From Polytrichum commune (lineage: Eukaryota > Streptophyta > Polytrichopsida > Polytrichales > Polytrichaceae): a DNA stretch of 64,000 bases. The notes below the pieces were generated by a model. That model was not told the origin of the DNA, did no database searches, and saw only the letters and a program-made list of their open reading frames with translations. The stretch is taken from NCBI GenBank assembly GCA_950295325.1, contig OX485806.1, positions 53,253,169 through 53,317,168 on the forward strand, given 5' to 3'. Each line of letters opens with the position of its first letter. The stretch's first letter is position 1. Positions 37,074-57,873 of this stretch are shown piece by piece. The translations under genes were made by a program, and so were the position numbers.

Positions 37074-40000
37074 TGTCGAGGTCACCTTCAAACCCTCAGC
37101 AAACTTAGACGGTGTAACCCGCTGCTGACCGGTTTACATGGACACTACACTTATCTAAATTAACTTTTGAAGGTGTTTCCTCTTGGATAAATCTTTAAGG
37201 AGAAAGTAGCCTAAGCTTTCAAGCTTATGTTCCCCGAAATCCTAATGTCGAGGTTAAGTGTTGTGAATATAAGGAGTGTTTTCGCAATCAATGTAATGGT
37301 ATCAAAACATTCTTCAATTTCATTTCCAATTCTAAATCCTCAATCAAAGTTCACAATCACATTACTTTGAGTGTTTTCCTTAACAATCCATTGCAATGCC
37401 TTTAAGGTGAAAGTTGGCTACTTGATGGTCTTCAAAGTCTTTTATTCTTGAATGATGGTTTGAAGATCTTCTTAATGTCTTCATTCTTCTAAAGTTCCCT
37501 TTTGTCTGGTTTTCCTTTGTATTCTCTACTCATGAGAGTTTAGTTCTTCATTCTTGAATATCTCTAAATTCCTAGGAAGGATCTTCTCTAATCTTCCTAT
37601 TCTCTTGAGTGCTTCGGTCTTGCATTCCTTACGCAATCTTCTTTGTCTTCACGATGAGCTTCGGATTTTGTCAATCTCTTAGCCTCTTCACTTTTGATAT
37701 CTTGACATCTCCTTAGACCCAAAAGGTATCTTAGATCTTGGTTAAAAAAAAAATTCGTTTAAACCTTTAGTCCTCAAAGGGCTTCAAACTTGCGGTCTTG
37801 GCCTCGGGCTTGCGGTCCTCTGGTCCCGAGGGCCCTCAGTCTCCAAATCTTGAAGAAAGCTTTTAATGTCTTCAAGTCTTTTCTTGTAGTCCTTGATTTC
37901 GTAATCTCTTGAAAAGACCTTCAGATCCTAAAGTCTTCTCGGTCCTCCAGTCTCATGGGCCCTCAGTCTTGCGGCCCTTTTAGCTTTCCATGTTCTCCCG
38001 GTCTTCAAAAGTCTTCAATCAAATCTTCAAATACTTCACAGGTCTTGAGACTTCGCTCCTATGGTCTCGTGGTCTCTCAGTACCTCAGGCCCTCAATCTT
38101 CAAGGTACACCCAAAAGGGATCTTCAAATCTCCAAGTCTTCGGATTCGTTATGAATCAATCTTCAAGTCTCGTAACTCGTCGTCCGGTTCCGCGGTCCTC
38201 CAGTCGCGGTCTCCAGTCCGCGGGCCTTCAGTATCGCGGGCTCTCAGTCTAAATTCGGTCTTCAAACCCGAAGGCGTTCGTCTTCGAGTATCTTCAAATG
38301 TCGCTAAGTCTTCGGTCTTCGTCTTCACGCCTTGCGGCCTCGTGGTCCCTCAGCCGCGGGCCTTCAATCGTCTTCAAGTTCGAGGATAATATTTCAATCC
38401 TTTAAGTCTTCAAGCTCGAAAAGATCTTCGATTCCTCAAGTAAAATCGCGAAGCTCCGGTTGTCGTCAAATCGCTCCCGATAATGCTCCAAATAGGTCTT
38501 CGTTAAAACGCTCCCGATAATGCTCCTCTTGACGCTCACGTTGGATTGTTGAAATGAATAATGAGGTGTTATAGGGGCCCGTAGTGCCCCTTTATATAGG
38601 TTTTGAAATCTTATAATTGGTTGAATCGGCGGTTAGGTGTGGCCCCTAATGCCAAATGTCTAATTAGGCTAATTTTAGTCTGAATTAAGGCTGCAGTCTA
38701 AATTTAGGTCTGTCACATCTATTTATAGAAACCACACGTGCTAAATATAGATGTTCATGAGAAGTGGATTGGTTGCAATTCCTTCTAATACCTAGATGTG
38801 CCTAGGTGTGTTCGGTTACCATCCATGAGTCATCCATTCCCAATTTCATCCTTCATTGCTTAGATAGTTAAGGCGGTTAATGTCATCCAAGGGATTTTCA
38901 TCCCTTGGCTTGGATATCTCTAGTTCTTCATCCACACCCTCTAATGAGATCATTGTTAGTGACTACGTGTTCACTAAAACAATTAGGTGTTACTATCCCT
39001 AGTCACTAATGCACTCCCTTCCTACTCAAAAACGGTAACTAGGTACCCTAATTCCTTCTACCTATTAATCCGGCCGTTCCCTAAGTACTAGGATGCGTTC
39101 CCGCCGACCTTGCATCCGTTCCCAGTGCTCTAAGTGTGTTCCCGGGTCACCTCCGTTCTCGGGCGTTCCCGAACCACCTTGGCGAGTTCCCGGTGAGCTC
39201 CCTTGTTCCCGAGCCGTCTTTGGCCACGTGGCCCTTCGTAGGTCGTTCTCCGTAGATACCCAACTCCGTATAACCGGCGTCCAGAGTCCCGGCCACTACT
39301 CGTCCCGGCCTTACGACTCCCCCCAGATACCCGGTTATTACCCCTGGCCTCCCTTGCTGCTTGCTCTCGTAAGCTGCCACCTGGCGTCTCTCGGCCTTCG
39401 CTCCTTCCTCTTTGTCTTCCGCCTGGTCTGTCTTCCGCTTGGGCCCTCAGCTCTCCTGGGCTCTCTTCCCATTCACAGCGCGAAGCTCCGTTCACGATCC
39501 TCTGTGTGCGTGATGCCCCGCTCCGCTACTGCTCCTTCCTTGTTACCCGAATGCTCGGAGGTGCCTTCTGTGGTGTACATTTTACCCCTCCTTCCGGAAA
39601 GAAGCATGTCCTCATGCTTCGTTGCCTCGGTGAGGGTGGTAAGGTTTGGGATCTGAAACCTGCATTCGCGGAATGGTGCCATGGTCGACGGTGCCGAACT
39701 GCCCCTTTGTGATCGTGGTTTGTTGTTCTTCCAGCGTCCGAGTTGCATACTCCTTAAGCTGGGGTATAGTGATGTTGGTTGAGTGCTCTGGGTGATGCTC
39801 CAGCAGCCACTGGTGTCGTCTTACCGCCTCGAAGCAGATCGTGGTGTCTTCTCTCCGCAGGGACTCTCTTGCATGTTGGAATGTTTCCTGGTTGTCGCGT
39901 AAAAGCTTAGCGATTGCAATCTTCTGGCCGTGGGTGTAGGGACGTAATGTGGGGAGAGGCTGGTTGTTGTTATGTTCCTTTGCATATGTTGCCTCGTGTC

Positions 40001-40315
40001 GTGCTAGAGAGGCTATGCTGCGGAGAATGTATCTCCGAATGTAGAAGGGGGGAGATCCCGTTACCACTTCGATAATGCCCAATGGTAACTTGAAATCTCC
40101 CATTGCCCACATGAACGCCAAGGTGTCCTTTGCTCTGGCGTTAGCGTGATCCCACAGCTTTTTGAACTGCGCTTGCTTCAATGTAAGTCCTCTCTTGAGT
40201 ATGGGTAGATCGCTGACCAATAGATCGATTACCCTGTATGTTTGGTAGTACTGCATTATAGATCTAAGGGGTGCAGTGTGTTCTAACAGTTTGGTATAGA
40301 CTTCGGCCCTTGGGT
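37074..40315 (-). repeat. Gypsy 3' LTR (3242 bp or longer)
   Basis: Collinear with 54632-57873 at a constant offset of 17558 bases, without indels that I could see. The outer end is CTCGACA on the minus strand. In transcript orientation it carries the last 235 codons of the third ORF, a GC-rich block (39100-39600), a TATA box (38591-38599), then a leader full of short GAAGA/TTGAAG phrases. The inner end is placed where the two copies diverge (40315). If the 5' copy is truncated, the true LTR is longer. Confidence 0.85.
38591..38599 (-). promoter_or_regulatory. TATA box of the Gypsy LTR (3' copy)
   Basis: CTATATAAA on the minus strand, followed by a GC-rich start region. Its orientation agrees with gag and pol. 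The identical box in the 5' LTR (56149-56157) would drive the genomic transcript. Confidence 0.65.
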
Positions 40316-42392
40316 GAATGCAGGCGTGTGGCAGTGCGAATTGGTCTGTGGGGATGCTTTGATGGAGTTGTTGCTGCAGGTCCTCCTTTTCTTGTTTAAC
40401 TACCTGTAGTTCTTGCTGGAGATCGTTGAGCAATTGGTTAGCCGCTCCCTCCGCGAGCGCATGGCGTTCAGCTCTGTCCAAAGGCTGGTTGGAGTCCTGG
40501 CCGAATTCGGAATCCAGCCTAGGGTTGGAAAGGGCTGCTTTTAATGCCCGATTTTCGGTTCGTAACCCGGTGATTTCTGCTCTCTCTCGTTGCTGAATTC
40601 TTTGTGCCTCCTTTACCTTCCGATCTCGGGTGTCCAAATGGGTTTGAAGTTCCTGGATCTGTTTTTGAAAAAAAGTAATCTTTTTATCCCTGTCCTCCAA
40701 CTGGTGTGACTGGGTCTCTTCCAGCTTGCGATTGTTCGCCAGCATTTCGGAATTTCTGTGGGTAAGGGTCTGGATCTCCTTTCTTGAGCTCTCCATCTCT
40801 TCCTCTTTTTCTGCTAGCTGTTGTTGCAGTTCCGCGGCTTCTTCCCCTTTTGCTTGCAGTTGTTGCATGTACGTCTTCTCCAATTGCTGAAATTTCAATA
40901 AGTCTTCCTGGTCCCTTTGAGTAACTGTTTGAAGTTCAGTCTGCAACCTGGTCGTTTGGTCCTCCCTTTCTGCCAACTGTGTCTGGGTTTCGAAGGAGTT
41001 CTCAATGTAGAGGTCTATAAGCTCCTCCTTGTCGGCCAGCTTCTCTTCCAGTCTTCCGATCTGCAAAACGAGAGAGTTGATGGTCTCTGTCTGTGGGGCT
41101 TCGGACTGGTTCTTCCCTGTTTTTGACCCTTCGTGCAGAATTGCCTCTCTCTGCACTTTGTGGAACTGGCGGTCCACATTACGTATCAAATTTGGTGGGG
41201 CTTTGCTTGTAAGGGTAGTCAGCAGATTTTCCAACCGTCTGTGGGCTTGAGTGATCTGCTGCACAAGGTTGGGTACATCATTCGGAACCTGCCAGGGCTC
41301 CTCAGTCTCGTACACAGTTGATTGGGGCGTGTCGGTTGTTTGAGAGGGCGGGGCTGGGGCAGCTTGTCCTACCTGGGATTTTTCCATCGGAGGCTCCACT
41401 ACCCTGAAGGTGCTTTGAAGTTTTGGAGAAGGTACCGGTGCATCTATGCACCTCTTCTTGTGAGGCTTGGAGGCACTAGAAGGGTTGGTCATATGAAACC
41501 CTGCCTCTGCCTCATGGAGGAGATTCATTACCCCAGCTGCTTTTAGAATTAGTGTGAGGTGAGGCCCAATAGCGGTCCTTTCCACCTTAACCGGGTTTTC
41601 TGAATGTTTTTGGTGGAGTTTCAGAATTTCGTCACGAAGTTCTTGGTGAAATTCTTCCACCCAATCAATGGTGTTGCCATTTAGAGCTGCTAGAATTAAT
41701 TCCGCAAAAGGTATGGAGATGTGGTTGTGTCCTGTTATATTGAGACAAAATAAAGAATTGAGGATTCTGAGAGGCTTCTTGGCACCTGGGTAGGTGCAAT
41801 CCGTCACCCTCACCGTCTCTTGTCCATCTGATGTTGTCCTGGGCGATGGAAATAATTCTGTGAGCTCCCATTGCTTGGTTGAGGCGACCTTTCGGGTTGT
41901 GAACTCAAAAATATCTCGCAATTGAGTTTTCCAGTTGGTTGCTAGTAATGGAATTACCTTGCCTTGCACCGTGGTTGTCATGGTGGATACCTCGAGGTTC
42001 GCCACTGCCTCCCGAACCAAAGCCTCATGCAACACTGTCCATGTAACCCTGTTTACAAAACCATCAAGATTGATTTGTTTGAGGAACTTGGCCTCCTCCA
42101 AGGTGAATTGATGGTGCCTAAGAACTGTATCCACCACGAAAATGTATCTTGCTGGCTGCTCCTCTCCCTGCTTCCTCTTCATTTTATCAGCGAAACCTGA
42201 CTCCTCAATGGTTTTCACTGCTCTGCACAATATCTCTTGGTAAACATGAAATTTGCACGACCTCGGGTACCACTGGGACTTACTCTTGCTCCAACACACG
42301 GAGGTGAAAGCCTGCAGACATGTGTTTTGCAAATCTCTCCAAAACACTCCCTGCTCATTTAATTTCGGCTTGACCTCATATAAGCTCTCCAT
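39612..42392 (-). CDS. Third ORF of the Gypsy element, 926 aa coiled-coil protein, ends inside the 3' LTR
   Basis: An uninterrupted sense-strand frame downstream of integrase, where Athila-like elements carry an env-like ORF. Residues 1-310 form a mixed globular region (a landmark is G-P-H-L-T-L-I-L-K-A-A-G near 280). A Pro/Ser/Thr-rich linker follows. From about 439 to 620 there is a long coiled coil rich in E, Q, L and R. The last 235 residues, from the shared LTR boundary at about 692, form another globular part. No signal peptide, transmembrane segment or zinc finger is visible, so I do not call it an envelope protein. A structural or nucleic-acid packaging role is a guess. No family recognised with confidence. 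Confidence 0.6.
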   Translation of the reverse strand: MESLYEVKPKLNEQGVFWRDLQNTCLQAFTSVCWSKSKSQWYPRSCKFHVYQEILCRAVKTIEESGFADKMKRKQGEEQPARYIFVVDTVLRHHQFTLEEAKFLKQINLDGFVNRVTWTVLHEALVREAVANLEVSTMTTTVQGKVIPLLATNWKTQLRDIFEFTTRKVASTKQWELTELFPSPRTTSDGQETVRVTDCTYPGAKKPLRILNSLFCLNITGHNHISIPFAELILAALNGNTIDWVEEFHQELRDEILKLHQKHSENPVKVERTAIGPHLTLILKAAGVMNLLHEAEAGFHMTNPSSASKPHKKRCIDAPVPSPKLQSTFRVVEPPMEKSQVGQAAPAPPSQTTDTPQSTVYETEEPWQVPNDVPNLVQQITQAHRRLENLLTTLTSKAPPNLIRNVDRQFHKVQREAILHEGSKTGKNQSEAPQTETINSLVLQIGRLEEKLADKEELIDLYIENSFETQTQLAEREDQTTRLQTELQTVTQRDQEDLLKFQQLEKTYMQQLQAKGEEAAELQQQLAEKEEEMESSRKEIQTLTHRNSEMLANNRKLEETQSHQLEDRDKKITFFQKQIQELQTHLDTRDRKVKEAQRIQQRERAEITGLRTENRALKAALSNPRLDSEFGQDSNQPLDRAERHALAEGAANQLLNDLQQELQVVKQEKEDLQQQLHQSIPTDQFALPHACIHPRAEVYTKLLEHTAPLRSIMQYYQTYRVIDLLVSDLPILKRGLTLKQAQFKKLWDHANARAKDTLAFMWAMGDFKLPLGIIEVVTGSPPFYIRRYILRSIASLARHEATYAKEHNNNQPLPTLRPYTHGQKIAIAKLLRDNQETFQHARESLRREDTTICFEAVRRHQWLLEHHPEHSTNITIPQLKEYATRTLEEQQTTITKGQFGTVDHGTIPRMQVSDPKPYHPHRGNEA

Positions 42393-43922
42393 TCTAACCT
42401 CCTTGTTAGCTCTTGCCGAACAATCTGGTAGTTTCCCTAACTTCCTCTACTCTGGTGTGTGTGGGCAACTGCTGCACACAGTGATATTGAGGGGTGGTTT
42501 CTCTGCCGCAACTCACTTGGGCCTTCAGCTGAACTTGGCGGTTGGAGTTCTTGATTAGGGTTTAACAAGCTTCAGCTGGCTTGCCTTCTCTGCATGTGGG
42601 TGGTAGGCCCCACTCTTTGCTGGACTCCTGACTTGGCCAGGTAATACCCTCAACCCAATTTCTATTGTGTAAGTTTAACTTCAATTCACTTACTGACTTT
42701 GTGCAAGTGGTTCTTTGCAGGTACTGTAAGTCCCCTCCTTTACGTGGGATTCCCCACTTCGGTGGGTTGAATCCCCATTTCTTTGGGGCTCACCTTGTGT
42801 GGGCCCCTCCAATGAAATCAAAACTGGATTTTAATCTTCTCCATTATGTTTCCAATTTCTGATGTTTGTGATTGTGTGTATTGTAATTGTGGTCCATTTA
42901 CTAAACATTCATTTATCCCTAGCGCAACTCGCTTCTTCAATAATTTCGGCTTTCATAATAATTCACCCATATTTCATGTGCTCCAGGCTTTATACTTATC
43001 CCTAACACAAAACTAGTTCCTATATCCCTTCAAAATGTGACTCCAATATTCTAACCAATCTTCACCAAAATAAATAAATAAATCACGATCCTTATTGGAC
43101 CAACTTTCATCCATTTACCAAGTTCTCCTCACCCTAATGGTTGAATCTCTTTCAATCATCTAAGTGTTCTGCAATCTATTTGGGGTTTGAAAGTCCTCAT
43201 AGAAGGCTCGCTCACACATCATTCCCTTAAGGCCTTGTAACGTGTACTTCAATTCTTCATCCAATCGCTTTAAAATTCCGTTCGGCTCCAAATCAATCCT
43301 CCTTTAAACAGAGTGTCGTCCATCCATTGATATCTTCTCACTTTCCCAGATTAAGTCCTTTTTCCATAGAAGATAACAATATGAATTCAAACTCGCTTCC
43401 TTTATCCCCTGGTCCTCAAAATTCTATCCGAGCTTCGACCAGATTCTCCTTTTCGCATCCGATCCCATGTCTCATCTAGTCTTCTAGGGGTTAACCCTTC
43501 TTAAAATCGAATAAAAGAGAACATGTCCAAGCCTTGTAGTCATCTAAAGTGGTGTTCCCATTTAGAATACTCAAAAATCCTTATCTCTCTCAAGTTTCTT
43601 CCGTGATTTGTGATTTGTTTCTTCCGTGATGTTAACTTCCTAGAATACGTGCTTTTCCCAATAATGTAACTCATCCATATCATTGTGTCAGTAACTTGTT
43701 GGGAATCTCTTCCCTCCTTAAAGCAACTCCCATTCATCTTTTGGTGATCCTTGGTGGAAAGCGATTATTTTGGCTATGTTTTCCTATGCTTAGGTACTAA
43801 TGACCTTTCTCTTTAATCCTCTCATCCTTAAATTGCGATGAAAGGGCTCTTACTGGCTTACTATTCCAGTGGTCAGTCCTAGGTGAGCCTTTACCTAGAC
43901 TTTATTTATTTTTTTAGAATTT
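42393..43922 (-). other. Spacer between integrase and the third ORF
   Basis: About 1.5 kb without sizeable frames. It presumably contains the promoter or splice signals needed to express the third ORF. A run of seven G on the minus strand (43940-43946), just inside the end of pol, resembles the polypurine tracts of Tat-type elements. If it is one, the true 3' LTR would begin close to the end of pol and include the whole third ORF. Confidence 0.4.
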
Positions 43923-46900
43923 TCATTTGTGAGTTGGTTCCCCCCCAGCTGGCTCCAAGTCAGGTAAGGCAGGGTAGGCATGGGTTGTATTCCTCATAGG
44001 TGTTGTGGTTCCCAAACTTTCTCCTAAACTTGATAGTAGTTCCCATTGGGATATGGTATGTAGGTTGGTTTCTTTTTCGTCCCTTTGGTCGTGCCTTAGG
44101 GGGTTTAAGGTATCTTTTGGTTGACCACTCTCTTGTTTTGAGGGATGTATGTGGTATACTTCTAGCATTACTCTATGCATTTCCAAATCTTCAGCATCTA
44201 AGATTTCTTGACTTTGGTAAGAAGTGGAACCAATATGTGAAATGATTTCCGTATTTGATTGAGAAGATGGGGTGATGGGAATTGGTGTAGTACTAGTCCC
44301 TTTGTATAAAGGATTTTGTTTTGCTCGTATCTCCGTTTCCAAAAAGTGGCGTGCTAAAATTTGTAAGGCATAAGCCTGAGTTGATTTGGGCTCTTGGTAT
44401 GGTTTTAGCTTGTTCATGTTGACTCGTCCCAAACGGTCCCCTTGTAGGGTGGTAACATCCACTGAACCATTATCATAGACTTGTTGAATTAAATAAGGTC
44501 CTGCCCATCGTATTTTGAACTTGCCCGGCCCGGGTATCTTATGGCGCAAGTGCCACAAGATTCGTTGACCGGGATAAAAACGTGTTTTGGGTGGAGTATT
44601 TTGCTCCCCATCTTCGTTGCTTCGAGAGTTTTGACTTTTCTCCATAGCTTGAGTAAGGTCCTCTTTTAGAGTGTCGTGTTTCTTAGCCTCCTTTTGGAGT
44701 GGCTTGGTTATCCCAAGGTCACAATGTTGACATTGTCTCTTTGCCCGGGGTTTGTCATGTCTTTCCTTTCGTAAGAGTTGCATATGTTTCATGTTTTCTT
44801 CAGCTTCATGTCTGGTCAAATCCATAGTTCTGAGTTGCTCCATTCTCTTTTCTAAAATGGGATGAAACTCTTGACTCCGCTTTTGATAAATATCGGGATG
44901 AAGATAAGCCATAGGTAACAAGGCTTCTGTCCCGAATACTAATGAAAATGGAGTGTGCTTGGTGGTAACCTTATAGGCTGTCCTATAGGCCCAAAGTGCT
45001 GCATGTAACTTGGTGTCCCAATCCGTTCGATTGGCGTTAACCATTTTAGTCAAAGCAATCTTAATTACCTTGTTGGTGCTCTCCGCTTGCCCATTGGCCT
45101 GTGGGTAGTAAGTGGTTGACTTCCGGTGTAAAATCATAAATTCTTGAGTGAGCACCTTGATGGTGTCATTAATAAAATGACTTCCTTGGTCGCTCACAAA
45201 CTCTAATGGACATCCAAATTTCGTAATTATTTCTTCAAAAAGGAATTTGGCTGTGGATTTAGCCGTGTTATCCTTTAAGGCTCTGGCTTCCACCCATTTG
45301 GTGGTGTAGTCCGTAGCCGTGATAATGTACCGATTCTTGGTACCTTTAGCTGGCGGGTTGACCGGGCCAATGAAATCCAAACCCCATTTCTGAAATACCT
45401 CAATGGGCATTGTGGGATGTAAGGGTTGGAGATTGGTTGAGATTTTTGGGCCAACCCTCTGACAGATGTCACATTGGGTGCAGTAAAGATGAACATCTCT
45501 CTTCATGGTGGGCCACCAGTACAAAGCCGTTAAGACCTTGTGTAAGGTGATATTGGCTGAGAAGTGTCCTCCAGCTATCCCCTCATGAGCTTCCGCAATG
45601 ATGGCTGTAGTTATCGGTCCAGCTACGCATATCCTTCGTATACCATCGGGCCCTTCTTTTATCAGAGTCCCGTTGTGGTTTAGCATGTATGGACGACTTC
45701 GTATGGCGATTTGTTGTCGTTGCGTGGTTGAGGCTTCCGTGGTCAGCCTCCCGTGGGTTAAATAATCGATGAAAGGTGTTCTCCAGTCCGGTTCTTCTTT
45801 GTCCTTGATCGTGACAGTTTTGCAGTCAACAACATGCTCCGGGGTTTCATTGGGCCAACAAACTCTACACTTCTTGCATAGATGGTCAATGTCTGGAGGA
45901 ATTGTGGGCCACCAATAAGGCCCTTGGGTGACTTGTAAAATCATTTCATCCATTGAAAGATGAGGGTACCGTTGATTGTGAATGGTTGTCAACCATTCGA
46001 TTCCTCTTTCTTGAGAGATGCACAGTCTCGTTTGCCCATTTGCAAAACTTCGCTTTAACTTTCCTTTCTTTAGAAAGTAATGAGGTAATTCCGTCCGTAA
46101 GGTACCCAACTCTTCATGAAAGGCGAAGTCGCTTAGTTCCATTGGGTTTTTGAGGTATTGAATGATTGGTTCTCTCCAATCATGTGTCTTCTGATTCTGG
46201 AGGAAGATAGTCCCGTAGTTCTCGATTTTAAGGCCTGACGTTGCAGTGATCTGACATGGTTTACATTCGTCAATTAAGTGGTTTATATCTGAAGAAATGG
46301 TGGGCCACCAATACGGGCCTTTGTGTACTTGTGCGAGTACTTCTTTTCTCGTTAGATGCGGTATTTGATATTCATGTATCCTCTTCACCCAATCCTTGGC
46401 GTCTTCTTTGGCCACGCACATCTTAACTTCCCCATTTGGTAATCGATATTTCAACCCATCTTCGGCTATGAAATACGTCTCGGTGTTAAGGCTGAGTAAT
46501 CCCAACTCTTCATGTGTACCAACATGGTTTAACTCCTCAAAGCTCTTTAGTCGTTGTGTGATTGGTTGTCTCCAATCTGGCTTAGGTGTTGGTTTTGGTG
46601 AAGATGAGTTTTGATTTTCCCTGGGGCATTCCTTCGGTGTCTCCGTTCCTCTGCAAGTTTTGCAGTATCTTAAATGGTTGCACACGTCATTTCCCCATGT
46701 CGGCCACCAGTACGCTCCTGTGGCCACGGCCTTCCATGTTTCTATGGCAGCCAAGTGGGGTTCGCTTTCCCCATGTACCTTGGCTAGGTACCTGGGAACT
46801 TGAGTCTCGGGGATACAAACTTGGTTACCTTTTCCTCCTTTGCGTATCCGTTGTAACGTGCCGTTGCTGAACACAAAGTACTTCTGGCTTTGTGTTACCG

Positions 46901-49900
46901 TCCTTTTTACCTCTGGTGGTAGGGTTTGGTCGAAGATCTCCTTGCATGTTAGGTACTCCATATAAGGACGTCTCCAATCTGCAGCAACCCCTCTTAGTAG
47001 GTCTTTCCGGTCCAGAGGTGATGGTGTCTTCGGGTCTTTTGAAAACTCTGCTTGGTTGCTGCATACCGTACATTTCCGACGGCATAAGCTGTTAATGTCG
47101 GCTCCGCATGTGGGCCACCAATATGGCCCAAACATGATTAGGTGCCACATTATCTCTTCGCTAAGATGTTCCCCGGATTCTGTAACATGTAATTCTTGCA
47201 GGTATTTGTTGATTTCACGTCCCGCAATACATATCTTCACGTCTCCATCCGAGAATATCCTCTTTAGTTTTCCTTCTTCAATGAAATATTTTTGGCTTTG
47301 TCGAGTTATCCTTTTGTATTGATTCTTCGAGATGTGGGGTCCTTTCAAGTACCCGTATGTGAGGTATTCTATTAACAACCTCCTCCAATCCTTGTTGTCA
47401 GGTGTTTGTACGATGACGGACCCGCAAATTATGTTATGGAGCGGGCCTCGAAATCTTCTTCGACAAGACGGGCAGTCGTACATAATGTAGATTTGTATGT
47501 CACACAGCCCCATCGTGGGCCACCACCGATTCCCTTGCAAGCATCGAAGCCAAGTTTGTTGGTCGTCTAAGTGTCTCTGCTGGTGTACGTGCATTTTCCC
47601 TATCCAATGCTTTATTTGGTAACCAGCGATGCAAATTTTAGCCATTCCATTCTTCTCCAGTTTTCGAAGTTTTCCCTTTTCCAAAGTGAAAATTTCGCTC
47701 TCTCGTATGGTTTCCCGCTGCCCTCTTTGAGTTTCCATGTCCATTTTGAGTCTTCCATGCGCCAGATATTCGACTAGAGGTGTTCTCCAATCGTTAAAAG
47801 TTTCTTTGTATGGTATAATGTCCGCCCCGTTACCCGGTTCCGAAGAGCTTGCTTCTGTGTGTAACTCTTCTCCATGCTCTTCGCACTCGATGCATAGTGT
47901 GATGAGTAGTGAGACATCTTCCGTGATAGTTGGCCACCAATACGGCCCTTGTAGAACTAATTTCCTGGTGGCATTTACTGAAAGATGTTGATTTTCTCGT
48001 ATATGGAGGGTCTTGATGTAACTCCTCACATATCTTCCAGGCATACATTTCTTGGTAATGCCGTTATGAAACATGCGATGTAACTCCCCTTCAATGAGTA
48101 TGAAAAATTTGCTTCGGTACACTACCAATTTTCTTTCTTCTTTGGGTAGGGAACTCACCCAGGGGGTTCCGTGTGTTAGACAAGTTAGGTATTGGACATA
48201 TGGTGTTGTCCAATCCGATTCTGCTTTTCCTGTCATGTCTTCTTGCGCTTCCAAAGGTTGTACAGGGAGTGGATCGTCGTCGTCCTCTGAATCTTGTGGG
48301 GTAATATTCCCGGTTTCGTTTCCTTGGTCAACAACCTTACATACCGGACATTCTTGACAGTATTCCAGTACGTCTCTTCGTCGAGTAGGCCACCAATATG
48401 GGGTGCGTAGTATGTAATGCCATGTTGAAGTTAGATTGTAGTGTATCCCATCTTGCTCATGGGCTTCGCTTATGACTTCTTCAATGATGTCCCCGGCTAT
48501 ACACTCATGTATCTTGCCGGAGATACTGACTCGCTTGAGCTTTGCGTCGTCTAGGACGAAGGGCTCACTCAGTTGCCTGATCTTGTTTTGTTCTCGTGGG
48601 GTAGCTAGAGCTGACAACAATCTTCCGTGGGTAAGGTACTCAATGAAAGGTGCTCGCCAGTCTTCGAATGGTTGCACGTGAACCATGAATAAACTTGCGT
48701 CCGGAAACTGGTCTTGTACCCCTGAGGGGTCTTCTCCGCTTTCTATCCTTGATAGGTGGTCAGCCATTACATGGCTCCTACCAGGCTTATAAACTACTTC
48801 AAAATCGTACTCTTGAAGTAACAGCATCCATCTCGCGATTCGCCCGGACACCACTGGTCGATTGACCAAGTATAGCAGGGCTTGATGGTCCACGTAGAAC
48901 ACGAAATGGTTTGCTAGCAAATAGTGTCTGAATTTGCCCACTGAGTAGATCATTGCTAGGGCTTCACGCTCCGTCGTACTATAGTTCTTCTCCGCACTGT
49001 TTAAGAGTCGACTAGCGTAATGAATTGGGGAATCTCTATCCCTGTGTATGTTCTGAGCCAAAACGGCTCCAATTGCGATGTTCGAGGCATCGCAGTGTAC
49101 GTGGAACTCCATGGTCCAATTGGGAGTTACCAAAATGGGTGTAGTTGTTAACATTTTCTTCACTTCTTCGAAGGCCTCTTGACAAGATTTTGTCCAAATG
49201 TACTTCTCTCCTTTCTTGAGTAGTAAGTACAAAGGCCGAGTGATCTCAGCATACATCCATATGAATTTCCGATGGTATGTAGCTTGGCCTAGAAAACTCC
49301 GAATTCCTCGTACGGTGGTTGGTGGAGGTAATCCTTTGATAACTTCCACCTTCTTCGGATCCACCAACAATCCTTCTTTGCATACCACGTGCCCTAAGAG
49401 TCTCCCTGAATTAACGCAGAAAAAACACTTCTCTGGGTTCAGGCTTACTCCATTTTCGCGGCACTTAACGAGACATTTTTCCAAATGCTCAATGTGGTCT
49501 TCTTTGGTTCCATAAACTGTAAAATCATCTAAAAACACCTTCATGAATTTGTCGAGGTAGTCGGCAAATATCTTCATCATGCCCCTTTGGAAGGTGGCTG
49601 GTGCACACATTAATCCAAAGGGCATCACCCTGTACGCAAACGCTCCGTATTCGGTGATGAAAGACGTCTTCAGCTGATCTTCTAAGGCGATCATGATTTG
49701 GTTGTAGCCACTGTACCCGTCCATTAGCGTGTACATTTCGTGTCCTGCAACCGCTTCCAAGATAGATTCTGTAAATGGTAATGGAAAAGGGTCCACCTTC
49801 GTGACTGCATTCAGTTTTCGATAGTCGACACACACTCGCAGTTTCCCATTCTTTTTGGGTACAATCACGATTGGTGACAGCCATTCGGTTTTATCCACGG

Positions 49901-52568
49901 GATATATGAATCCTGCCTCCAAGTACTTGTCTATCTCTTCTTTCACCTTGGCTGCGTAATTGGGGTTCATCCTATAACGCATTTGTCGTATCGGCTTGGC
50001 TTCCGGCTGTAGCTCAATCTTATGCTCGCACACATGAGGGGGTATTCCCTTCATGTCCTTGTAGGTGAAAGCAAACACATCCTTGAAATTTAGAAGTAGC
50101 TCTTTCACTTTTGCTTCGTATTCTCCCAAGTCTTTCGCTATCTTGACTAACTTAGGCTCTTCCGGAGTTCCTAAGTTTAAAGTCTTTACTAAGTCTTCAT
50201 CTTCAACTGTCCACCCCGCTATCTTCTTCCCTTTGACGGCTTCTGAGGCAGGGGTGCGATCAATCTCTATCTCTCCTTCTTTTGCTTTGTAAAACTGGGA
50301 GGGATATACCGGTTTCTCTTCCATAGCTTCTTGTTCTTTCTTCGTTGTTTTTCTTGACCGAGGTTTCTCGGTTTCACCTTTTCGTGATCCAGGTTTTCCT
50401 GGCTCGTGGTGAGTATCAATCTTCACTGTGTTGCAGCTTGGTTCTCTTAGCTTCTTCAAGCTTTTCAAATCAAAGTTCCCCATGGGTAGCAGTTCTGGGA
50501 AAGCTTCATAGACTATCGCTTCTTCTTCATCGGACAATCCCATTTCCCAGTCATAGTCTTCCCAATTTAAGGGTCTCTTGGCCGGTGGTAGTGCCGGTGT
50601 TCGTTGGGTGCTTATCTCCACCTTGTTTCCACCCTGCGTTAAGGTCAATTTGTTGAGGGGCCAATCATGTTGTGCTTGGGCCTCTTTTAACCATGGCCTC
50701 CCTAGCAAAAGGGAGTAACTGTCTTCGGTACTCACCATGTCTATGACGGTGAGTGTCGTTCCAATCACGATGCCGCCGACATCCAGTCGTACGTCTCGGA
50801 TGATTCCCTTGGGCATGACCTTTCTTTGGTCAGCCATTTTTATAGTGAATGGTGCAGGCTCTATCTTCTTGAGCCCCAATTTCCTTCTCAATGTATCAGT
50901 GATGATGTTCACTCCTGATCCACCATCAATCAAAGCATCCGGAATCCTCTTGTTCTTCACAATCACTGATATCATGGGCATTTCTTCGTCGAATGCCTTT
51001 GCTGTCACTTGGTATGTAGGTGTCGGTTTCTCAGACGTTCCTTCTTGGCTGGTAAGGGCAGCCATTACCCGTTTCCTACAATAGGGGGCTATCTCTAGTA
51101 GTTGCCCTATTGAAATGTTGGCTCTTGTGTGATTCATCACATTCTCTAGAATCTCATCTACCCTTGCCTGGGTAGTCTTTGGGGCGCCTCCTTTCTCGGG
51201 GCTCCGTTCTTTAGGCTTCCTTGCCTCTTCTTCTTCTGGGTACCAAGGTGCGAACTCCTCTGGCGTGGGTAGAGCTTCGCCCTGTTCCTCCTGTATGTAT
51301 TTGATAGTTTTACTCACCTCCCGGTGGACTTCCATATCAGCTTTCCATTCCTCGCTGTTGGCTCCTATCGGCCTTTCATTTTTCTCCTTATCATCAACGT
51401 GTTCATCTTGCTCGAACACCTCCTCTTTGTCTTCATCGGGGTGTGCGTCCGGCTCGCGCACAACATCTCTCTCTTCATCAGAGTTCTCATCTCTTTGTTG
51501 GTGGTCTTCCTGCTCCTCAGAGCTGCCACTGCTCGAATTGTCGTCATCATCACTATCGTCACTTTCGCTATCTTCCTTGCCTCCCTCGGCCGCAGCCCGT
51601 TGGACTCTTGTCATCACACACACAGCAGGGGACACCACGTTGGCTCCCACGGCTGGCTTAGCATTCCTGAATCCACTCAACTCCTGTTGGTGTTTGATAA
51701 AGTGCGGACAGTCCGTCTTCCGGTGTCCCTTTTGATGACAGTAAAAACACTCGTCGGGGTTGCCATCTCGCTGAGGTACGCCAATGTACCCAGTTCTCGG
51801 CGCTGCCTTGGTGTTGGTACTGTCCATCAAGCTTCGGTTGTATTCATGATTGATAGGTCCTCTGGGACCTCCTCGGTAGGGGTATCCATCTTCCCTCCGG
51901 TAATCTTGGCTCTTGTAGGGGTAGTAGCCTTCCCTCCTGAAGTCATCTCTGTAGTTGTCGTTGGGCCTAAAATAGGGCCGTTCATCTCTGCGATATTCAT
52001 TTCCCCGGTAGGGGCCTCCCGCCTCCCGCCGGTAATCGCCTTCCCTGAATGGGGACCTTTCATCTCTTCTGAATTCTATCCTTGGTTCAAACCGAACCCT
52101 TCTGTCATTCGTTTCTCGCCTAGGAGTGATCGCTCCTGGCCTTCGATTGGATTGGGGTTGTATTTGATTTACCCCATATCTTCTATCCCGGGGTCTCCGA
52201 GATTCGTGCCTTTCATAAACACACTCACTTGTGTTATGAGTAAGGCTATTACAATTTGTACATTGTTTCATTTGACACTCTTGCACGTAGTGCCCTTCAT
52301 TTCGGCATCGCCGACAAATTATGCCCGTTCTGAATTTCCGGCTTCCCAAAGCCAGTCCTTCTATCTCTTCTCTGAGAGTCTTGATGTCATCTTTGGTTGA
52401 GTTATTTCTTCTACTCTTTGTCTTCTTTTTCTTCTTTCGCCGTTCTTCCTCTGAGTCATCACTTGACTCCTCACTGTCACTCTCATCGAGGAACCTCCCT
52501 TTCCTCATCTGTCCTAATTCCAACTTCCGTGCCGATGCTTTTGCCTCATCCAAGTCATCGGTCGGCAT
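43923..52568 (-). CDS. Gypsy gag(C-terminal)/pol polyprotein, 2881 codons, with eight tandem H-H-C-C zinc modules
   Basis: In frame with gag (52593-53768) and separated from it by one UAG. Order: zinc knuckles at about 83-96 and 102-115 (C-x2-C-x4-H-x4-C), an Arg/Tyr/Gly-rich stretch, a third knuckle near 272, and an acidic Asp/Glu/Ser block. Then come the protease (I-D-G-G-S-G at about 547), reverse transcriptase (from about 890; catalytic F-L-D-D near 1013 in place of Y-x-D-D) and RNase H (about 1150-1270). Eight modules start at 1303, 1452, 1593, 1727, 1864, 1998, 2130 and 2261. The integrase core has D near 2396, D near 2458 and E about 36 residues later. A GPY-like C-terminal region (G-P-G-K-F-K-I-R-W-A-G-P-Y) is near 2690. 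All catalytic residues appear present. A usual Gypsy pol has one zinc module, which explains about 900 extra residues here. Confidence 0.93.
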   Translation of the reverse strand: MPTDDLDEAKASARKLELGQMRKGRFLDESDSEESSDDSEEERRKKKKKTKSRRNNSTKDDIKTLREEIEGLALGSRKFRTGIICRRCRNEGHYVQECQMKQCTNCNSLTHNTSECVYERHESRRPRDRRYGVNQIQPQSNRRPGAITPRRETNDRRVRFEPRIEFRRDERSPFREGDYRREAGGPYRGNEYRRDERPYFRPNDNYRDDFRREGYYPYKSQDYRREDGYPYRGGPRGPINHEYNRSLMDSTNTKAAPRTGYIGVPQRDGNPDECFYCHQKGHRKTDCPHFIKHQQELSGFRNAKPAVGANVVSPAVCVMTRVQRAAAEGGKEDSESDDSDDDDNSSSGSSEEQEDHQQRDENSDEERDVVREPDAHPDEDKEEVFEQDEHVDDKEKNERPIGANSEEWKADMEVHREVSKTIKYIQEEQGEALPTPEEFAPWYPEEEEARKPKERSPEKGGAPKTTQARVDEILENVMNHTRANISIGQLLEIAPYCRKRVMAALTSQEGTSEKPTPTYQVTAKAFDEEMPMISVIVKNKRIPDALIDGGSGVNIITDTLRRKLGLKKIEPAPFTIKMADQRKVMPKGIIRDVRLDVGGIVIGTTLTVIDMVSTEDSYSLLLGRPWLKEAQAQHDWPLNKLTLTQGGNKVEISTQRTPALPPAKRPLNWEDYDWEMGLSDEEEAIVYEAFPELLPMGNFDLKSLKKLREPSCNTVKIDTHHEPGKPGSRKGETEKPRSRKTTKKEQEAMEEKPVYPSQFYKAKEGEIEIDRTPASEAVKGKKIAGWTVEDEDLVKTLNLGTPEEPKLVKIAKDLGEYEAKVKELLLNFKDVFAFTYKDMKGIPPHVCEHKIELQPEAKPIRQMRYRMNPNYAAKVKEEIDKYLEAGFIYPVDKTEWLSPIVIVPKKNGKLRVCVDYRKLNAVTKVDPFPLPFTESILEAVAGHEMYTLMDGYSGYNQIMIALEDQLKTSFITEYGAFAYRVMPFGLMCAPATFQRGMMKIFADYLDKFMKVFLDDFTVYGTKEDHIEHLEKCLVKCRENGVSLNPEKCFFCVNSGRLLGHVVCKEGLLVDPKKVEVIKGLPPPTTVRGIRSFLGQATYHRKFIWMYAEITRPLYLLLKKGEKYIWTKSCQEAFEEVKKMLTTTPILVTPNWTMEFHVHCDASNIAIGAVLAQNIHRDRDSPIHYASRLLNSAEKNYSTTEREALAMIYSVGKFRHYLLANHFVFYVDHQALLYLVNRPVVSGRIARWMLLLQEYDFEVVYKPGRSHVMADHLSRIESGEDPSGVQDQFPDASLFMVHVQPFEDWRAPFIEYLTHGRLLSALATPREQNKIRQLSEPFVLDDAKLKRVSISGKIHECIAGDIIEEVISEAHEQDGIHYNLTSTWHYILRTPYWWPTRRRDVLEYCQECPVCKVVDQGNETGNITPQDSEDDDDPLPVQPLEAQEDMTGKAESDWTTPYVQYLTCLTHGTPWVSSLPKEERKLVVYRSKFFILIEGELHRMFHNGITKKCMPGRYVRSYIKTLHIRENQHLSVNATRKLVLQGPYWWPTITEDVSLLITLCIECEEHGEELHTEASSSEPGNGADIIPYKETFNDWRTPLVEYLAHGRLKMDMETQRGQRETIRESEIFTLEKGKLRKLEKNGMAKICIAGYQIKHWIGKMHVHQQRHLDDQQTWLRCLQGNRWWPTMGLCDIQIYIMYDCPSCRRRFRGPLHNIICGSVIVQTPDNKDWRRLLIEYLTYGYLKGPHISKNQYKRITRQSQKYFIEEGKLKRIFSDGDVKICIAGREINKYLQELHVTESGEHLSEEIMWHLIMFGPYWWPTCGADINSLCRRKCTVCSNQAEFSKDPKTPSPLDRKDLLRGVAADWRRPYMEYLTCKEIFDQTLPPEVKRTVTQSQKYFVFSNGTLQRIRKGGKGNQVCIPETQVPRYLAKVHGESEPHLAAIETWKAVATGAYWWPTWGNDVCNHLRYCKTCRGTETPKECPRENQNSSSPKPTPKPDWRQPITQRLKSFEELNHVGTHEELGLLSLNTETYFIAEDGLKYRLPNGEVKMCVAKEDAKDWVKRIHEYQIPHLTRKEVLAQVHKGPYWWPTISSDINHLIDECKPCQITATSGLKIENYGTIFLQNQKTHDWREPIIQYLKNPMELSDFAFHEELGTLRTELPHYFLKKGKLKRSFANGQTRLCISQERGIEWLTTIHNQRYPHLSMDEMILQVTQGPYWWPTIPPDIDHLCKKCRVCWPNETPEHVVDCKTVTIKDKEEPDWRTPFIDYLTHGRLTTEASTTQRQQIAIRSRPYMLNHNGTLIKEGPDGIRRICVAGPITTAIIAEAHEGIAGGHFSANITLHKVLTALYWWPTMKRDVHLYCTQCDICQRVGPKISTNLQPLHPTMPIEVFQKWGLDFIGPVNPPAKGTKNRYIITATDYTTKWVEARALKDNTAKSTAKFLFEEIITKFGCPLEFVSDQGSHFINDTIKVLTQEFMILHRKSTTYYPQANGQAESTNKVIKIALTKMVNANRTDWDTKLHAALWAYRTAYKVTTKHTPFSLVFGTEALLPMAYLHPDIYQKRSQEFHPILEKRMEQLRTMDLTRHEAEENMKHMQLLRKERHDKPRAKRQCQHCDLGITKPLQKEAKKHDTLKEDLTQAMEKSQNSRSNEDGEQNTPPKTRFYPGQRILWHLRHKIPGPGKFKIRWAGPYLIQQVYDNGSVDVTTLQGDRLGRVNMNKLKPYQEPKSTQAYALQILARHFLETEIRAKQNPLYKGTSTTPIPITPSSQSNTEIISHIGSTSYQSQEILDAEDLEMHRVMLEVYHIHPSKQESGQPKDTLNPLRHDQRDEKETNLHTISQWELLSSLGESLGTTTPMRNTTHAYPALPDLEPAGGEPTHK
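45420..48662 (-). repeat. Tandem array of eight integrase-type H-H-C-C zinc modules
   Basis: Each unit begins D-W-R/T (plus-strand ends at 48662, 48215, 47792, 47390, 46979, 46577, 46181, 45788). Each runs through an E-Y-L-T-H-G-like helix, a strand pair ending in C-I/V-A, then H-x5/6-H, a stretch ending Y-W-W-P-T (R-W-W-P-T in unit 3), and C-x2-C. All eight keep both histidines and both cysteines. Unit length falls from 149 to 131 residues. Sequence identity between units is low outside these landmarks, so the duplication is old and the array has been maintained. Only unit 8 adjoins the integrase core. Confidence 0.93.
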
Positions 52569-52592
52569 TAAATCAATGTGCTTAGCGTATTC

Positions 52593-53768
52593 CTATTTCA
52601 ACCCATTAAGGAACCATGCTTTCTTGAATTGATTACTAGGTTGAGGGTGAATCTTTGATGATTCCACCATAACCCTTTCATAAAATTTCTCGACTGTCTC
52701 GTCTTTCTTTTGCTTGAGGGAGCCTAAGCTTTCAATGACTTCTCCCTCTGATTTCTTTGATCTGAATCTCATAAGGAAGGCAGTTCCTAAACTTGGCCAG
52801 TCCGGAAAATGGTTTGGGCCAAATTGGGAGTACCATTCCAAGGCTCGTTTCTTTAAGGTAACAGGGAATAGTTGTAATTTGATCGCGTCTGTGTCTTCTT
52901 GATTTGCGAGACACACGTTGTTGAACTCTTGCATATACGTATCGGGATCCGTCTTACCCTTGTAGGTTGGTAAGGGAACCTTCGTTCTTCGGGGTTGTGC
53001 GGCCATGTTGACTGGGTTGGGTAAGTTGCTTCCAACACCAGGTGGGTTGTTGCTCTTGGCTGGTGGTGGGCTGACTCCGGTGTTAATTCCAAGGTTTTGG
53101 AATTGCTTAAGTTTCTCTTCAAACTTCCTCCGTAGGTCGTCAAACTCTTCTTGACTGATGGGTCTTTTTACTCCTTGGTCCGTGTTATCTTGTGTGCTTT
53201 CTCCGGAGAAGCCGGAGTCTTCAAAGCTAAATTGTTCTTCAAAATTTCTTTTCAATTTCTCCCAACTCCTTGGGTTGAAAAGATTTTCCTCAGCCGTGTT
53301 TCCTTGATGGGTGTTGTCCTGCGCTTTATCTACTGGGGTATGTGTACCCGTGTTTTTACCTGTACCTTTCGTTCTCAACACATAGGTTCCAAGAGGGGTG
53401 CCTATTATCAGATCATCCTCATCTTCCTCGTTTTCTCCCTGATTCAAGTTCTCTTCATCCAAGTCTTCATGTCCTTTGCTTGTCTCACCATTACCTCCTC
53501 CTTCACTTTGACTTCTATGGTGGCTGGGCTTAGGGGTGTGGGAACCTACTGCCGGTGGTTCAGAGGCGTATCGGCTCTCTTCACTTCCTGTAGTTCGTTG
53601 TCTTGTACGCCTAGCGTACCTCTCTTCTCTTTCTCTCTTGAGTTGTTCAGTCCGCCTTATGCGGTCTTCTCTGGAATGCATGCGCTCCACATGCTTCTTC
53701 TCTGCCTCCTGTTCTCTAGGAGTTGGTGATGTACTTCTCGTACTAGATGTATCCTCATGATCAACCAT
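52593..53768 (-). CDS. Gypsy Gag, N-terminal part (391 aa) up to an in-frame UAG
   Basis: The capsid-type retrotransposon gag domain lies at about residues 270-375: P-L-P-T-Y-K-G, then A-L-E-W-Y, P-D-W-P-S-L and E-K-F-Y-E-R-V. It follows a charged, low-complexity N-terminus rich in E, R, S and T. The frame stops at UAG (52593-52595) and then continues open for 2881 codons beginning E-Y-A-K-H-I. The nucleocapsid zinc knuckles lie after the stop, so the stop is inside Gag and not at a gag/pol border. Either it is read through, or it is a single nonsense change (for example CAG to TAG) in this copy. Confidence 0.85.
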   Translation of the reverse strand: MVDHEDTSSTRSTSPTPREQEAEKKHVERMHSREDRIRRTEQLKREREERYARRTRQRTTGSEESRYASEPPAVGSHTPKPSHHRSQSEGGGNGETSKGHEDLDEENLNQGENEEDEDDLIIGTPLGTYVLRTKGTGKNTGTHTPVDKAQDNTHQGNTAEENLFNPRSWEKLKRNFEEQFSFEDSGFSGESTQDNTDQGVKRPISQEEFDDLRRKFEEKLKQFQNLGINTGVSPPPAKSNNPPGVGSNLPNPVNMAAQPRRTKVPLPTYKGKTDPDTYMQEFNNVCLANQEDTDAIKLQLFPVTLKKRALEWYSQFGPNHFPDWPSLGTAFLMRFRSKKSEGEVIESLGSLKQKKDETVEKFYERVMVESSKIHPQPSNQFKKAWFLNGLK

Positions 53769-54631: not shown

Positions 54632-57600
54632 TGTCGAGGTCACCTTCAAACCCTCAGCAAACTTAGACGGTGTAACCCGCTGCTGACCGGTTTACATGGA
54701 CACTACATTTATCTAAATTAACTTTTGAAGGTGTTTCCTCTTGGATAAATCTTTAAGGAGAAAGTAGCCTAAGCTTTCAAGCTTATGTTCCCCGAAATCC
54801 TAATGTCGAGGTTAAGTGTTGTGAATATAAGGAGTGTTTTCGCAATCAATGTAATGGTATCAAAACATTCTTCAATTTCATTTCCAATTCTAAATCCTCA
54901 ATCAAAGTTCACAATCACATTACTTTGAGTGTTTTCCTTAACAATCCATTGCAATGCCTTTAAGGTGAAAGTTGGCTACTTGATGGTCTTCAAAGTCTTT
55001 TATTCTTGAATGATGGTTTGAAGATCTTCTTAATGTCTTCATTCTTCTAAAGTTCCCTTTTGTCTGGTTTTCCTTTGTATTCTCTACTCATGAGAGTTTA
55101 GTTCTTCATTCTTGAATATCTCTAAATTCCTAGGAAGGATCTTCTCTAATCTTCCTATTCTCTTGAGTGCTTCGGTCTTGCATTCCTTACGCAATCTTCT
55201 TTGTCTTCACGATGAGCTTCGGATTTTGTCAATCTCTTAGCCTCTTCACTTTTGATATCTTGACATCTCCTTAGACCCAAAAGGTATCTTAGATCTTGGT
55301 TAAAAAAAAAATTCGTTTAAACCTTTAGTCCTCAAAGGGCTTCAAACTTGCGGTCTTGGCCTCGGGCTTGCGGTCCTCTGGTCCCGAGGGCCCTCAGTCT
55401 CCAAATCTTGAAGAAAGCTTTTAATGTCTTCAAGTCTTTTCTTGTAGTCCTTGATTTCGTAATCTCTTGAAAAGACCTTCAGATCCTAAAGTCTTCTCGG
55501 TCCTCCAGTCTCATGGGCCCTCAGTCTTGCGGCCCTTTTAGCTTTCCATGTTCTCCCGGTCTTCAAAAGTCTTCAATCAAATCTTCAAATACTTCACAGG
55601 TCTTGAGACTTCGCTCCTATGGTCTCGTGGTCTCTCAGTACCTCAGGCCCTCAATCTTCAAGGTACACCCAAAAGGGATCTTCAAATCTCCAAGTCTTCG
55701 GATTCGTTATGAATCAATCTTCAAGTCTCGTAACTCGTCGTCCGGTTCCGCGGTCCTCCAGTCGCGGTCTCCAGTCCGCGGGCCTTCAGTATCGCGGGCT
55801 CTCAGTCTAAATTCGGTCTTCAAACCCGAAGGCGTTCGTCTTCGAGTATCTTCAAATGTCGCTAAGTCTTCGGTCTTCGTCTTCACGCCTTGCGGCCTCG
55901 TGGTCCCTCAGCCGCGGGCCTTCAATCGTCTTCAAGTTCGAGGATAATATTTCAATCCTTTAAGTCTTCAAGCTCGAAAAGATCTTCGATTCCTCAAGTA
56001 AAATCGCGAAGCTCCGGTTGTCGTCAAATCGCTCCCGATAATGCTCCAAATAGGTCTTCGTTAAAACGCTCCCGATAATGCTCCTCTTGACGCTCACGTT
56101 GGATTGTTGAAATGAATAATGAGGTGTTATAGGGGCCCGTAGTGCCCCTTTATATAGGTTTTGAAATCTTATAATTGGTTGAATCGGCGGTTAGGTGTGG
56201 CCCCTAATGCCAAATGTCTAATTAGGCTAATTTTAGTCTGAATTAAGGCTGCAGTCTAAATTTAGGTCTGTCACATCTATTTATAGAAACCACACGTGCT
56301 AAATATAGATGTTCATGAGAAGTGGATTGGTTGCAATTCCTTCTAATACCTAGATGTGCCTAGGTGTGTTCGGTTACCATCCATGAGTCATCCATTCCCA
56401 ATTTCATCCTTCATTGCTTAGATAGTTAAGGCGGTTAATGTCATCCAAGGGATTTTCATCCCTTGGCTTGGATATCTCTAGTTCTTCATCCACACCCTCT
56501 AATGAGATCATTGTTAGTGACTACGTGTTCACTAAAACAATTAGGTGTTACTATCCCTAGTCACTAATGCACTCCCTTCCTACTCAAAAACGGTAACTAG
56601 GTACCCTAATTCCTTCTACCTATTAATCCGGCCGTTCCCTAAGTACTAGGATGCGTTCCCGCCGACCTTGCATCCGTTCCCAGTGCTCTAAGTGTGTTCC
56701 CGGGTCACCTCCGTTCTCGGGCGTTCCCGAACCACCTTGGCGAGTTCCCGGTGAGCTCCCTTGTTCCCGAGCCGTCTTTGGCCACGTGGCCCTTCGTAGG
56801 TCGTTCTCCGTAGATACCCAACTCCGTATAACCGGCGTCCAGAGTCCCGGCCACTACTCGTCCCGGCCTTACGACTCCCCCCAGATACCCGGTTATTACC
56901 CCTGGCCTCCCTTGCTGCTTGCTCTCGTAAGCTGCCACCTGGCGTCTCTCGGCCTTCGCTCCTTCCTCTTTGTCTTCCGCCTGGTCTGTCTTCCGCTTGG
57001 GCCCTCAGCTCTCCTGGGCTCTCTTCCCATTCACAGCGCGAAGCTCCGTTCACGATCCTCTGTGTGCGTGATGCCCCGCTCCGCTACTGCTCCTTCCTTG
57101 TTACCCGAATGCTCGGAGGTGCCTTCTGTGGTGTACATTTTACCCCTCCTTCCGGAAAGAAGCATGTCCTCATGCTTCGTTGCCTCGGTGAGGGTGGTAA
57201 GGTTTGGGATCTGAAACCTGCATTCGCGGAATGGTGCCATGGTCGACGGTGCCGAACTGCCCCTTTGTGATCGTGGTTTGTTGTTCTTCCAGCGTCCGAG
57301 TTGCATACTCCTTAAGCTGGGGTATAGTGATGTTGGTTGAGTGCTCTGGGTGATGCTCCAGCAGCCACTGGTGTCGTCTTACCGCCTCGAAGCAGATCGT
57401 GGTGTCTTCTCTCCGCAGGGACTCTCTTGCATGTTGGAATGTTTCCTGGTTGTCGCGTAAAAGCTTAGCGATTGCAATCTTCTGGCCGTGGGTGTAGGGA
57501 CGTAATGTGGGGAGAGGCTGGTTGTTGTTATGTTCCTTTGCATATGTTGCCTCGTGTCGTGCTAGAGAGGCTATGCTGCGGAGAATGTATCTCCGAATGT

Positions 57601-57873
57601 AGAAGGGGGGAGATCCCGTTACCACTTCGATAATGCCCAATGGTAACTTGAAATCTCCCATTGCCCACATGAACGCCAAGGTGTCCTTTGCTCTGGCGTT
57701 AGCGTGATCCCACAGCTTTTTGAACTGCGCTTGCTTCAATGTAAGTCCTCTCTTGAGTATGGGTAGATCGCTGACCAATAGATCGATTACCCTGTATGTT
57801 TGGTAGTACTGCATTATAGATCTAAGGGGTGCAGTGTGTTCTAACAGTTTGGTATAGACTTCGGCCCTTGGGT
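54632..57873 (-). repeat. Gypsy 5' LTR (3242 bp visible, probably truncated at its outer end)
   Basis: Virtually identical to 37074-40315; one difference noticed, C at 37145 against T at 54703. The inner end abuts the primer-binding site. The outer end at 57873 reads ACCCAAGG on the minus strand and not TG, and no 5-bp repeat of the left flank (TCGGT) follows. The LTR was therefore probably cut by a later deletion or insertion, or the assembly joins two copies here. Confidence 0.82.
56149..56157 (-). promoter_or_regulatory. TATA box of the Gypsy 5' LTR
   Basis: CTATATAAA on the minus strand. Transcription would begin about 30 bases further toward lower coordinates and read a leader of about 1.5 kb before the primer-binding site. 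Confidence 0.65.

Follow-up and report, generated by a model that had tools for sequence, protein, structure and literature searches.

Eight tandem integrase N-terminal units in the polyprotein of a Ty3/Gypsy element from Polytrichum commune

We examined a stretch of 64,000 nucleotides of the Polytrichum commune genome (contig OX485806.1, positions 53,253,169 to 53,317,168 of the forward strand; "the window") that contains a Ty3/Gypsy element. Between RNase H and the integrase core, the pol polyprotein of this element carries eight modules in a row (U1 to U8), each read as an HHCC zinc domain preceded by a NED. An earlier note, made from this sequence without database searches, had proposed eight tandem integrase modules in one Gypsy polyprotein; the single stop-free frame, Pfam matches, and module profiles confirm this. 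We conclude that a Ty3/Gypsy lineage has multiplied the complete NED+HHCC unit in tandem upstream of integrase and that each module domain is under purifying selection. The novelty, which is surprising to a specialist, consists of seven extra copies of a known HHCC unit within an otherwise familiar Ty3/Gypsy element.

The array occupies positions 45402 to 48668 on the minus strand, inside a single pol frame; the note had located it correctly, with slightly different boundaries (45420 to 48662). Units are 131 to 149 residues long, as had been stated, and their strong divergence is borne out by pairwise identities of 23 to 37%. W-W-P-T, C-x2-C, and two His residues are present in all eight units, the latter as H-x5-H in U1, U2, U3, U5, U6, and U7 and as H-x6-H in U4 and U8. 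These motifs were thus described correctly, but the preceding D-W-R ... Y-L block is not universal, since U2 has D-W-T and U6 has R-L. The residues invariant in 8/8 units (U8 numbering) are D3, W4, L12, L44, G51, C56, H70, H77, W93, W94, P95, T96, D100, C108, and C111; hence, there is one further invariant Cys besides the zinc ligands. All four ligands are complete in each module of the window copy. Linkers of 20 to 38 amino acids separate all modules, and U1 to U7 together amount to 958 residues.

We searched each unit alone with the Pfam H2C2 model PF17921 (cut-off, 25.5 bits). Five units scored above the cut-off (U1, 40.4; U2, 28.9; U5, 28.3; U6, 29.1; U8, 57.1 bits), U4 and U7 fell below it (23.2 and 22.0 bits; E < 2e-4), and U3 alone gave no match. 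When each unit was left out in turn and scored against a profile of the other seven, it reached 99.9 to 117.7 bits; the best scores among 999 shuffles per unit were 6.5 to 10.9 bits. The likeness of the modules is therefore not due to chance, and the Pfam scores of the other units, together with these profiles, rule out that only U8 is real. An AlphaFold model of U7 (pLDDT 83) has a NED followed by a three-helix HHCC bundle. The repeated unit is thus the complete N-terminal unit of integrase, NED+NTD, as modeled for U7 and as assigned from sequence for the other units. The HHCC domain that the note had described as a zinc module is present, but the unit is not a bare finger. Structure prediction was less useful for the whole array, whose AF2 model (pLDDT 30) is usable only for its repeating secondary-structure pattern. 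U8, which directly precedes the integrase core, is inferred to be the integrase's own working NTD. In Ty3/Gypsy elements the HHCC domain at this place is usually single, a matter of custom and not of definition.

We searched the genome (408 Mb, 64 contigs) with the array and obtained 45 matches (42 of 1,244 candidates scored), from which 30 loci were cut. In 16 of the 30, the RNase H end motif is followed by eight modules (14 in a single frame; in L017 and L037, a frame break interrupts them), and in seven (L019 and L022 to L027) by eleven. The eleven-module copies carry the U1-U3 block twice, and the duplication includes part of the RNase H tail. The remaining seven loci are too broken for a full reading, so that their counts are lower bounds: eight modules in L013 and L033, eight over several frames in L028, L036, and L038, at least ten in L035, and six followed by a break in L034. 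Hence, the eight units of the window copy are not a fixed number. None of the 30 loci, with the broken ones read as lower bounds, is a single-unit copy of the window element's family, the paralog that the note had named as a refuter. The many copies on several chromosomes, together with the proteins from other sources described below, rule out an assembly artifact. In two pairs of loci, L020/L021 and L025/L027, the arrays match exactly or almost exactly; the members of these pairs lie 17 kb and 27 kb from each other on one chromosome and are perhaps tandem elements.

Since an array query finds only array-bearing copies, we repeated the census with the reverse transcriptase (RT). Of 3,918 candidates, 100 were scored, giving 102 matches in three tiers of RT identity: 88 to 100% (39 matches, the window family), 71 to 77% (21), and 54 to 59% (42). 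Within the window family, whose 39 matches represent 37 elements, 37 matches have an array match no more than 4.2 kb downstream; the two without one lie at C1:7.08 Mb, which is full of stops, and C5:8.16 Mb. We therefore dismissed a counting bias from the array-based search. As controls, eight loci of other Gypsy elements, the highest-ranking among the Pfam hits scored in the genome (L001 to L008), each had one module.

Seven proteins from other sources (P0002 to P0008), found with the array as the query, are 64 to 84% identical to it and show the same units, in unchanged order, wherever they cover the array. Ligands of U6 are missing in P0004 and P0005, and P0008 has neither U8 nor the core. 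These proteins differ from the genome loci examined (best identity, 66 to 95%). With the whole pol (region 1300-2395) as the query, none of 1,495 candidate proteins was scored; the array alone found the seven. The viral contigs searched gave no match.

We read seven members of the two lower RT tiers. Two middle-tier members, L039 and L042, have five modules (M1 to M5), and the third, L043, has three, followed by a break; all four read from the lowest tier (L040, L041, L044, and L045) have one. The module number is thus one in the distant relatives that were sampled, five in the sister family, and eight or eleven in the window family. In a tree of modules that included L040 and L041 and was built on few columns with long branches, U8, M5, and the single modules cluster, U1 groups with M1, and U6 and U7 group with M4. 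These groupings suggest that the common ancestor of the eight/eleven- and five-module families probably had about five modules and that duplications came later. Within the window family, the two blocks of eleven-module copies (a and b) differ by a dS (synonymous divergence) of 2.1 to 3.1, exceeding the divergence between subfamilies (0.9 to 1.36). The eight-module copies L014 and L015 have an a-type block, and the other eight-module copies in the tree have a b-type block; a tree of U4-U8 requires at least four changes between eight and eleven. Together, these data indicate that eleven modules is likely the old state, from which eight was derived by block loss, although recombination between copies could also explain the pattern.

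We measured selection as dN/dS (the ratio of nonsynonymous to synonymous divergence; pairwise NG86) in the 13 stop-free arrays among 22. Whole-array values were 0.12 to 0.24 for pairs at dS 0.24 to 1.36, and 0.09 for L009-L011, supporting the proposal that the array has been kept by selection over many element generations. In three pooled pairs, the values per module domain, a check that the note had suggested, were 0.13, 0.15, 0.09, 0.11, 0.18, 0.23, 0.11, and 0.07 for U1 to U8, and those for linkers 1 to 7 were 0.20, 0.23, 0.32, 0.64, 0.78, 0.59, and 0.51. Constraint extends to block a of the eleven-module copies (0.13 to 0.19; a versus b, 0.09 to 0.12) and to the five-module family (M1-M5, 0.09 to 0.26 for L039-L042; M1-M3, 0.08 to 0.20 for L043-L042, where L043 has two stops). 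Zinc ligands are also largely retained, with all four complete in 160/176 modules of 22 copies and, outside U6, in 148/154. The six losses outside U6 affect single ligands (L012 twice, L014, L026, L027, and L030), and each copy concerned has a stop in its array; in L026, the stop is at the lost ligand codon itself. A polyprotein can thus grow by 958 residues, and by more in the eleven-module form, and retain the addition under selection.

Integrases differ in the number of their subunits and at the C-terminal end, where chromodomains or tails occur. In the present lineage, it is the N-terminal unit that has multiplied, giving an array under selection, and families with one, five, eight, and eleven modules coexist in one genome. 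The integrases of prototype foamy virus (PFV), Moloney murine leukemia virus (MoMLV), and Ty3 share the NED+NTD fold assigned to the window modules; in contrast to the eight of the window element, each has one NED+NTD per protein, and additional NTDs are supplied by further integrase subunits. The Gypsy elements read from the lowest tier likewise have a single NED+HHCC-type module. The five-module sister family includes a protein from another source, P0009, whose last module is 78% identical to U8 and whose upstream modules are at most 37% identical to any of U1-U7. Tat elements, in the part of PMC10508981 available, are plant Gypsy elements that gained a pol-type domain, often beside RNase H; their gain is an additional RNase H, in one or two copies, whereas the window pol has one RNase H region. 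Searches of the open-licence literature, on tandem or multiple HHCC/H2C2 integrase domains and on Gypsy elements of mosses and ferns, turned up no account of such an element, judged by titles and the beginnings of abstracts. The words "zinc" and "H2C2" do not occur in the portions available of two plant surveys (the main text of PMC6317226, and PMC10508981).

By analogy with these integrases, we favor, at about even chances, the reading that the amplified NED+NTD array under selection is a multivalent arm for assembly or tethering. As a single unit, the NED/NTD fold makes contact with the DNA ends of the element and with partner integrases, according to the available parts of three studies (PMC8632968, PMC3738965, and PMC11054761). 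U8 would be the working integrase NTD, and U1-U7 (U1-U10 in the long form) would form a beads-on-a-string arm that stays joined to integrase or is released together with it. By binding weakly at many points, both to nucleic acid, be it cDNA of the element or target chromatin, and to integrase, the arm would help the intasome to assemble or hold it on its target, as single NED/NTD units do in PFV and Ty3. Zinc would chiefly stabilize each bead, and a bead without zinc would stay usable. A related and rather unlikely possibility is that the array is a cis-encoded intasome scaffold, in which one polypeptide gives many NED/NTD contacts and the size of the integration machinery is tuned by module number (1, 5, 8, or 11). 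In some retroviruses, such contacts come from the recruitment of as many as sixteen integrase subunits. The natural module series makes the need of some intasomes for extra NTDs testable by comparison of families.

Several observations weigh against the assembly or tethering arm. U1-U7 jointly (dN/dS, 0.14 to 0.18) are less constrained than U8 (0.02 to 0.10), RT/RNase H (0.02, from the two pairs that have intact frames and a dS that can be measured), and the integrase core (0.01 to 0.02; 0.12 in L018-L024, on few changes), and thus they may be accessory. Module net charge ranges from -12.8 (U1) to +7.2 (U3), so that not all modules look like DNA binders. Of the eight closest pairs (dS ≤0.001), four give no ratio and four give ratios of 1.16 to 2.59 on a handful of changes; these fit mutations after insertion, as expected, and lend no support. 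The claim that no zinc ligand has been lost holds for the window copy but not for the family: in 10 of 22 copies, U6 is missing at least three of its four ligands. These copies form a clade (L016, L019-L023, L025, L027, L029, and L030; L024 retains the ligands), and the tree needs one change to place the loss. In the U6 zinc region, dN/dS is 0.52 within the ligand-less clade, compared with 0.11 for zinc-complete clades against each other and 0.18 for L018-L024; the ligand-less U6 is still held in frame. Similarly, M3 of the five-module family lacks the Cys pair in L039, L042, and L043, and also the second His in L039 and L042; it still has a dN/dS of 0.12 to 0.20, and M3 of P0009 retains the Cys pair. 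An in-frame, ligand-poor U6 and a constrained M3 suggest that zinc is helpful but not indispensable in every bead.

The main rival to the arm is that the protease cuts the linkers to release separate small zinc proteins, e.g., nucleic-acid chaperones, in equal dose with the enzymes. This would suit the linkers between all modules and the nearly free change of linkers 4-7 (0.51 to 0.78) beside constrained domains. However, if the protease recognized one common site, a conserved motif would be expected; none was visible by eye in the freely changing linkers, and linkers 1-2 are more constrained (0.20 to 0.23). We regard this rival as possible but doubtful. Changes of array length on the U4-U8 tree and the RNase H tail copy in the duplicated block, expected from recombination between direct repeats, would also fit a passive spacer, or duplications driven by repeats in reverse transcription whose product is simply tolerated. 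A spacer needs neither the ligands kept outside U6 nor domain values of 0.07 to 0.23 against those of linkers 4-7, and this explanation, already disfavored, has very little probability.

Two further rivals give the modules other roles. A host-factor targeting arm, whose modules would guide integration by recognizing various proteins of chromatin or transcription, would accord with module divergence, which suits different partners, and with a contact between the Ty3 NED and TFIIIC reported in the part of PMC8632968 available. The coexistence of one-, five-, eight-, and eleven-module families in one genome speaks against it, and we consider it improbable. Truncated Gag of yeast Ty1 offers an analogy for a copy-number brake. 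By that analogy, core-less NED-NTD pieces would compete in trans during intasome assembly; indeed, the modules resemble a domain that is swapped between integrase subunits (PMC11054761, available part). Some spreading copies would then be expected to have lost the array, yet it lies close downstream of nearly all family RT matches, and a brake of this kind seems more improbable still.

In keeping with a Ty3/Gypsy retrotransposon of the Metaviridae, the window element has a gag, a long terminal repeat (LTR) pair, and the order protease-RT-RNase H-integrase, with the protease match below the cut-off (Table 1). Its stop-free pol frame (43923 to 52592, minus strand; 2,889 amino acids) encodes, in order, zinc knuckles, a weak protease, RT, RNase H, the eight modules, and the integrase core.

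Table 1. Features of the window element
Feature	Coordinates	Strand	Remarks
5' LTR as seen, 3,242 bp, possibly cut short	54632..57873	-	blastn, window against itself
gag open reading frame (ORF; capsid part), 411 aa	52593..53828	-	PF03732, 34.5 bits; same frame as pol
gag C terminus (zinc knuckles) + pol ORF, 2,889 aa	43923..52592	-	
Aspartic protease, weak	50685..50966	-	PF13650, 19.4 bits, and PF13975, 18.2 bits; both below cut-off
Reverse transcriptase	49386..49862	-	PF00078, 95.5 bits
RNase H	48807..49196	-	PF17919, 117.1 bits, and PF17917, 114.9 bits; overlapping
Module U1 (NED+HHCC), 149 aa	48222..48668	-	
Module U2, 141 aa	47799..48221	-	
Module U3, 134 aa	47397..47798	-	no Pfam match alone; recognized by profile of other units
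Module U4, 137 aa	46986..47396	-	
Module U5, 134 aa	46584..46985	-	
Module U6, 132 aa	46188..46583	-	ligands present here, lost in sister clade
Module U7, 131 aa	45795..46187	-	AlphaFold model, pLDDT 83
Module U8, 131 aa, putative canonical NED+NTD of integrase	45402..45794	-	PF17921, 57.1 bits; clusters with single-module relatives
Integrase catalytic core, D,D35,E triad read from sequence	45081..45395	-	PF00665, 38.4 bits over 45102-45395
944-aa 3' ORF, coiled-coil-like, ends within 3' LTR	39612..42446	-	sub-threshold Pfam matches only
3' LTR (repeated part), 3,242 bp	37074..40315	-	blastn, window against itself

The two LTR-like repeats differ by one mismatch, which suggests that the element (about 20.8 kb) is young. 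The inner LTR edge is as expected (..CA, followed by TTTTGGCGACC..), and downstream of it, after TTT, comes TGG.., a candidate primer-binding site. Neither TG nor a target-site duplication is present at the outer edges; hence, the 5' LTR may be cut short and the true LTR longer. The frame that the note had called unbroken is so for the array and pol but not for gag, which a TAG stop at 52593-52595 (minus strand) splits between the capsid and the zinc knuckles. This stop is missing from all 16 readable copies of 18 fetched, so that it appears confined to the window copy, whose gag is broken; in the other copies, gag-pol is open at that place. Pfam matches in pol up to E 1 included no chromodomain after integrase, although a vestigial one could escape, and they gave a single RNase H region and no additional RNase H. 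The element may resemble the Athila clade. Neither the 944-aa 3' ORF nor a 266-aa ORF in the 5' LTR (57170-57970, minus strand), in which the C-terminal part of the former recurs, matched a clear Pfam family. The remains of another Gypsy element, with a protease-like ORF recognized by eye and an RT 35% identical, adjoin the 5' LTR on the opposite strand (59535-60221 and 62302-63692, plus strand). ORFs at 29371-32930 (plus strand) presumably resemble a CACTA/EnSpm-type transposase.

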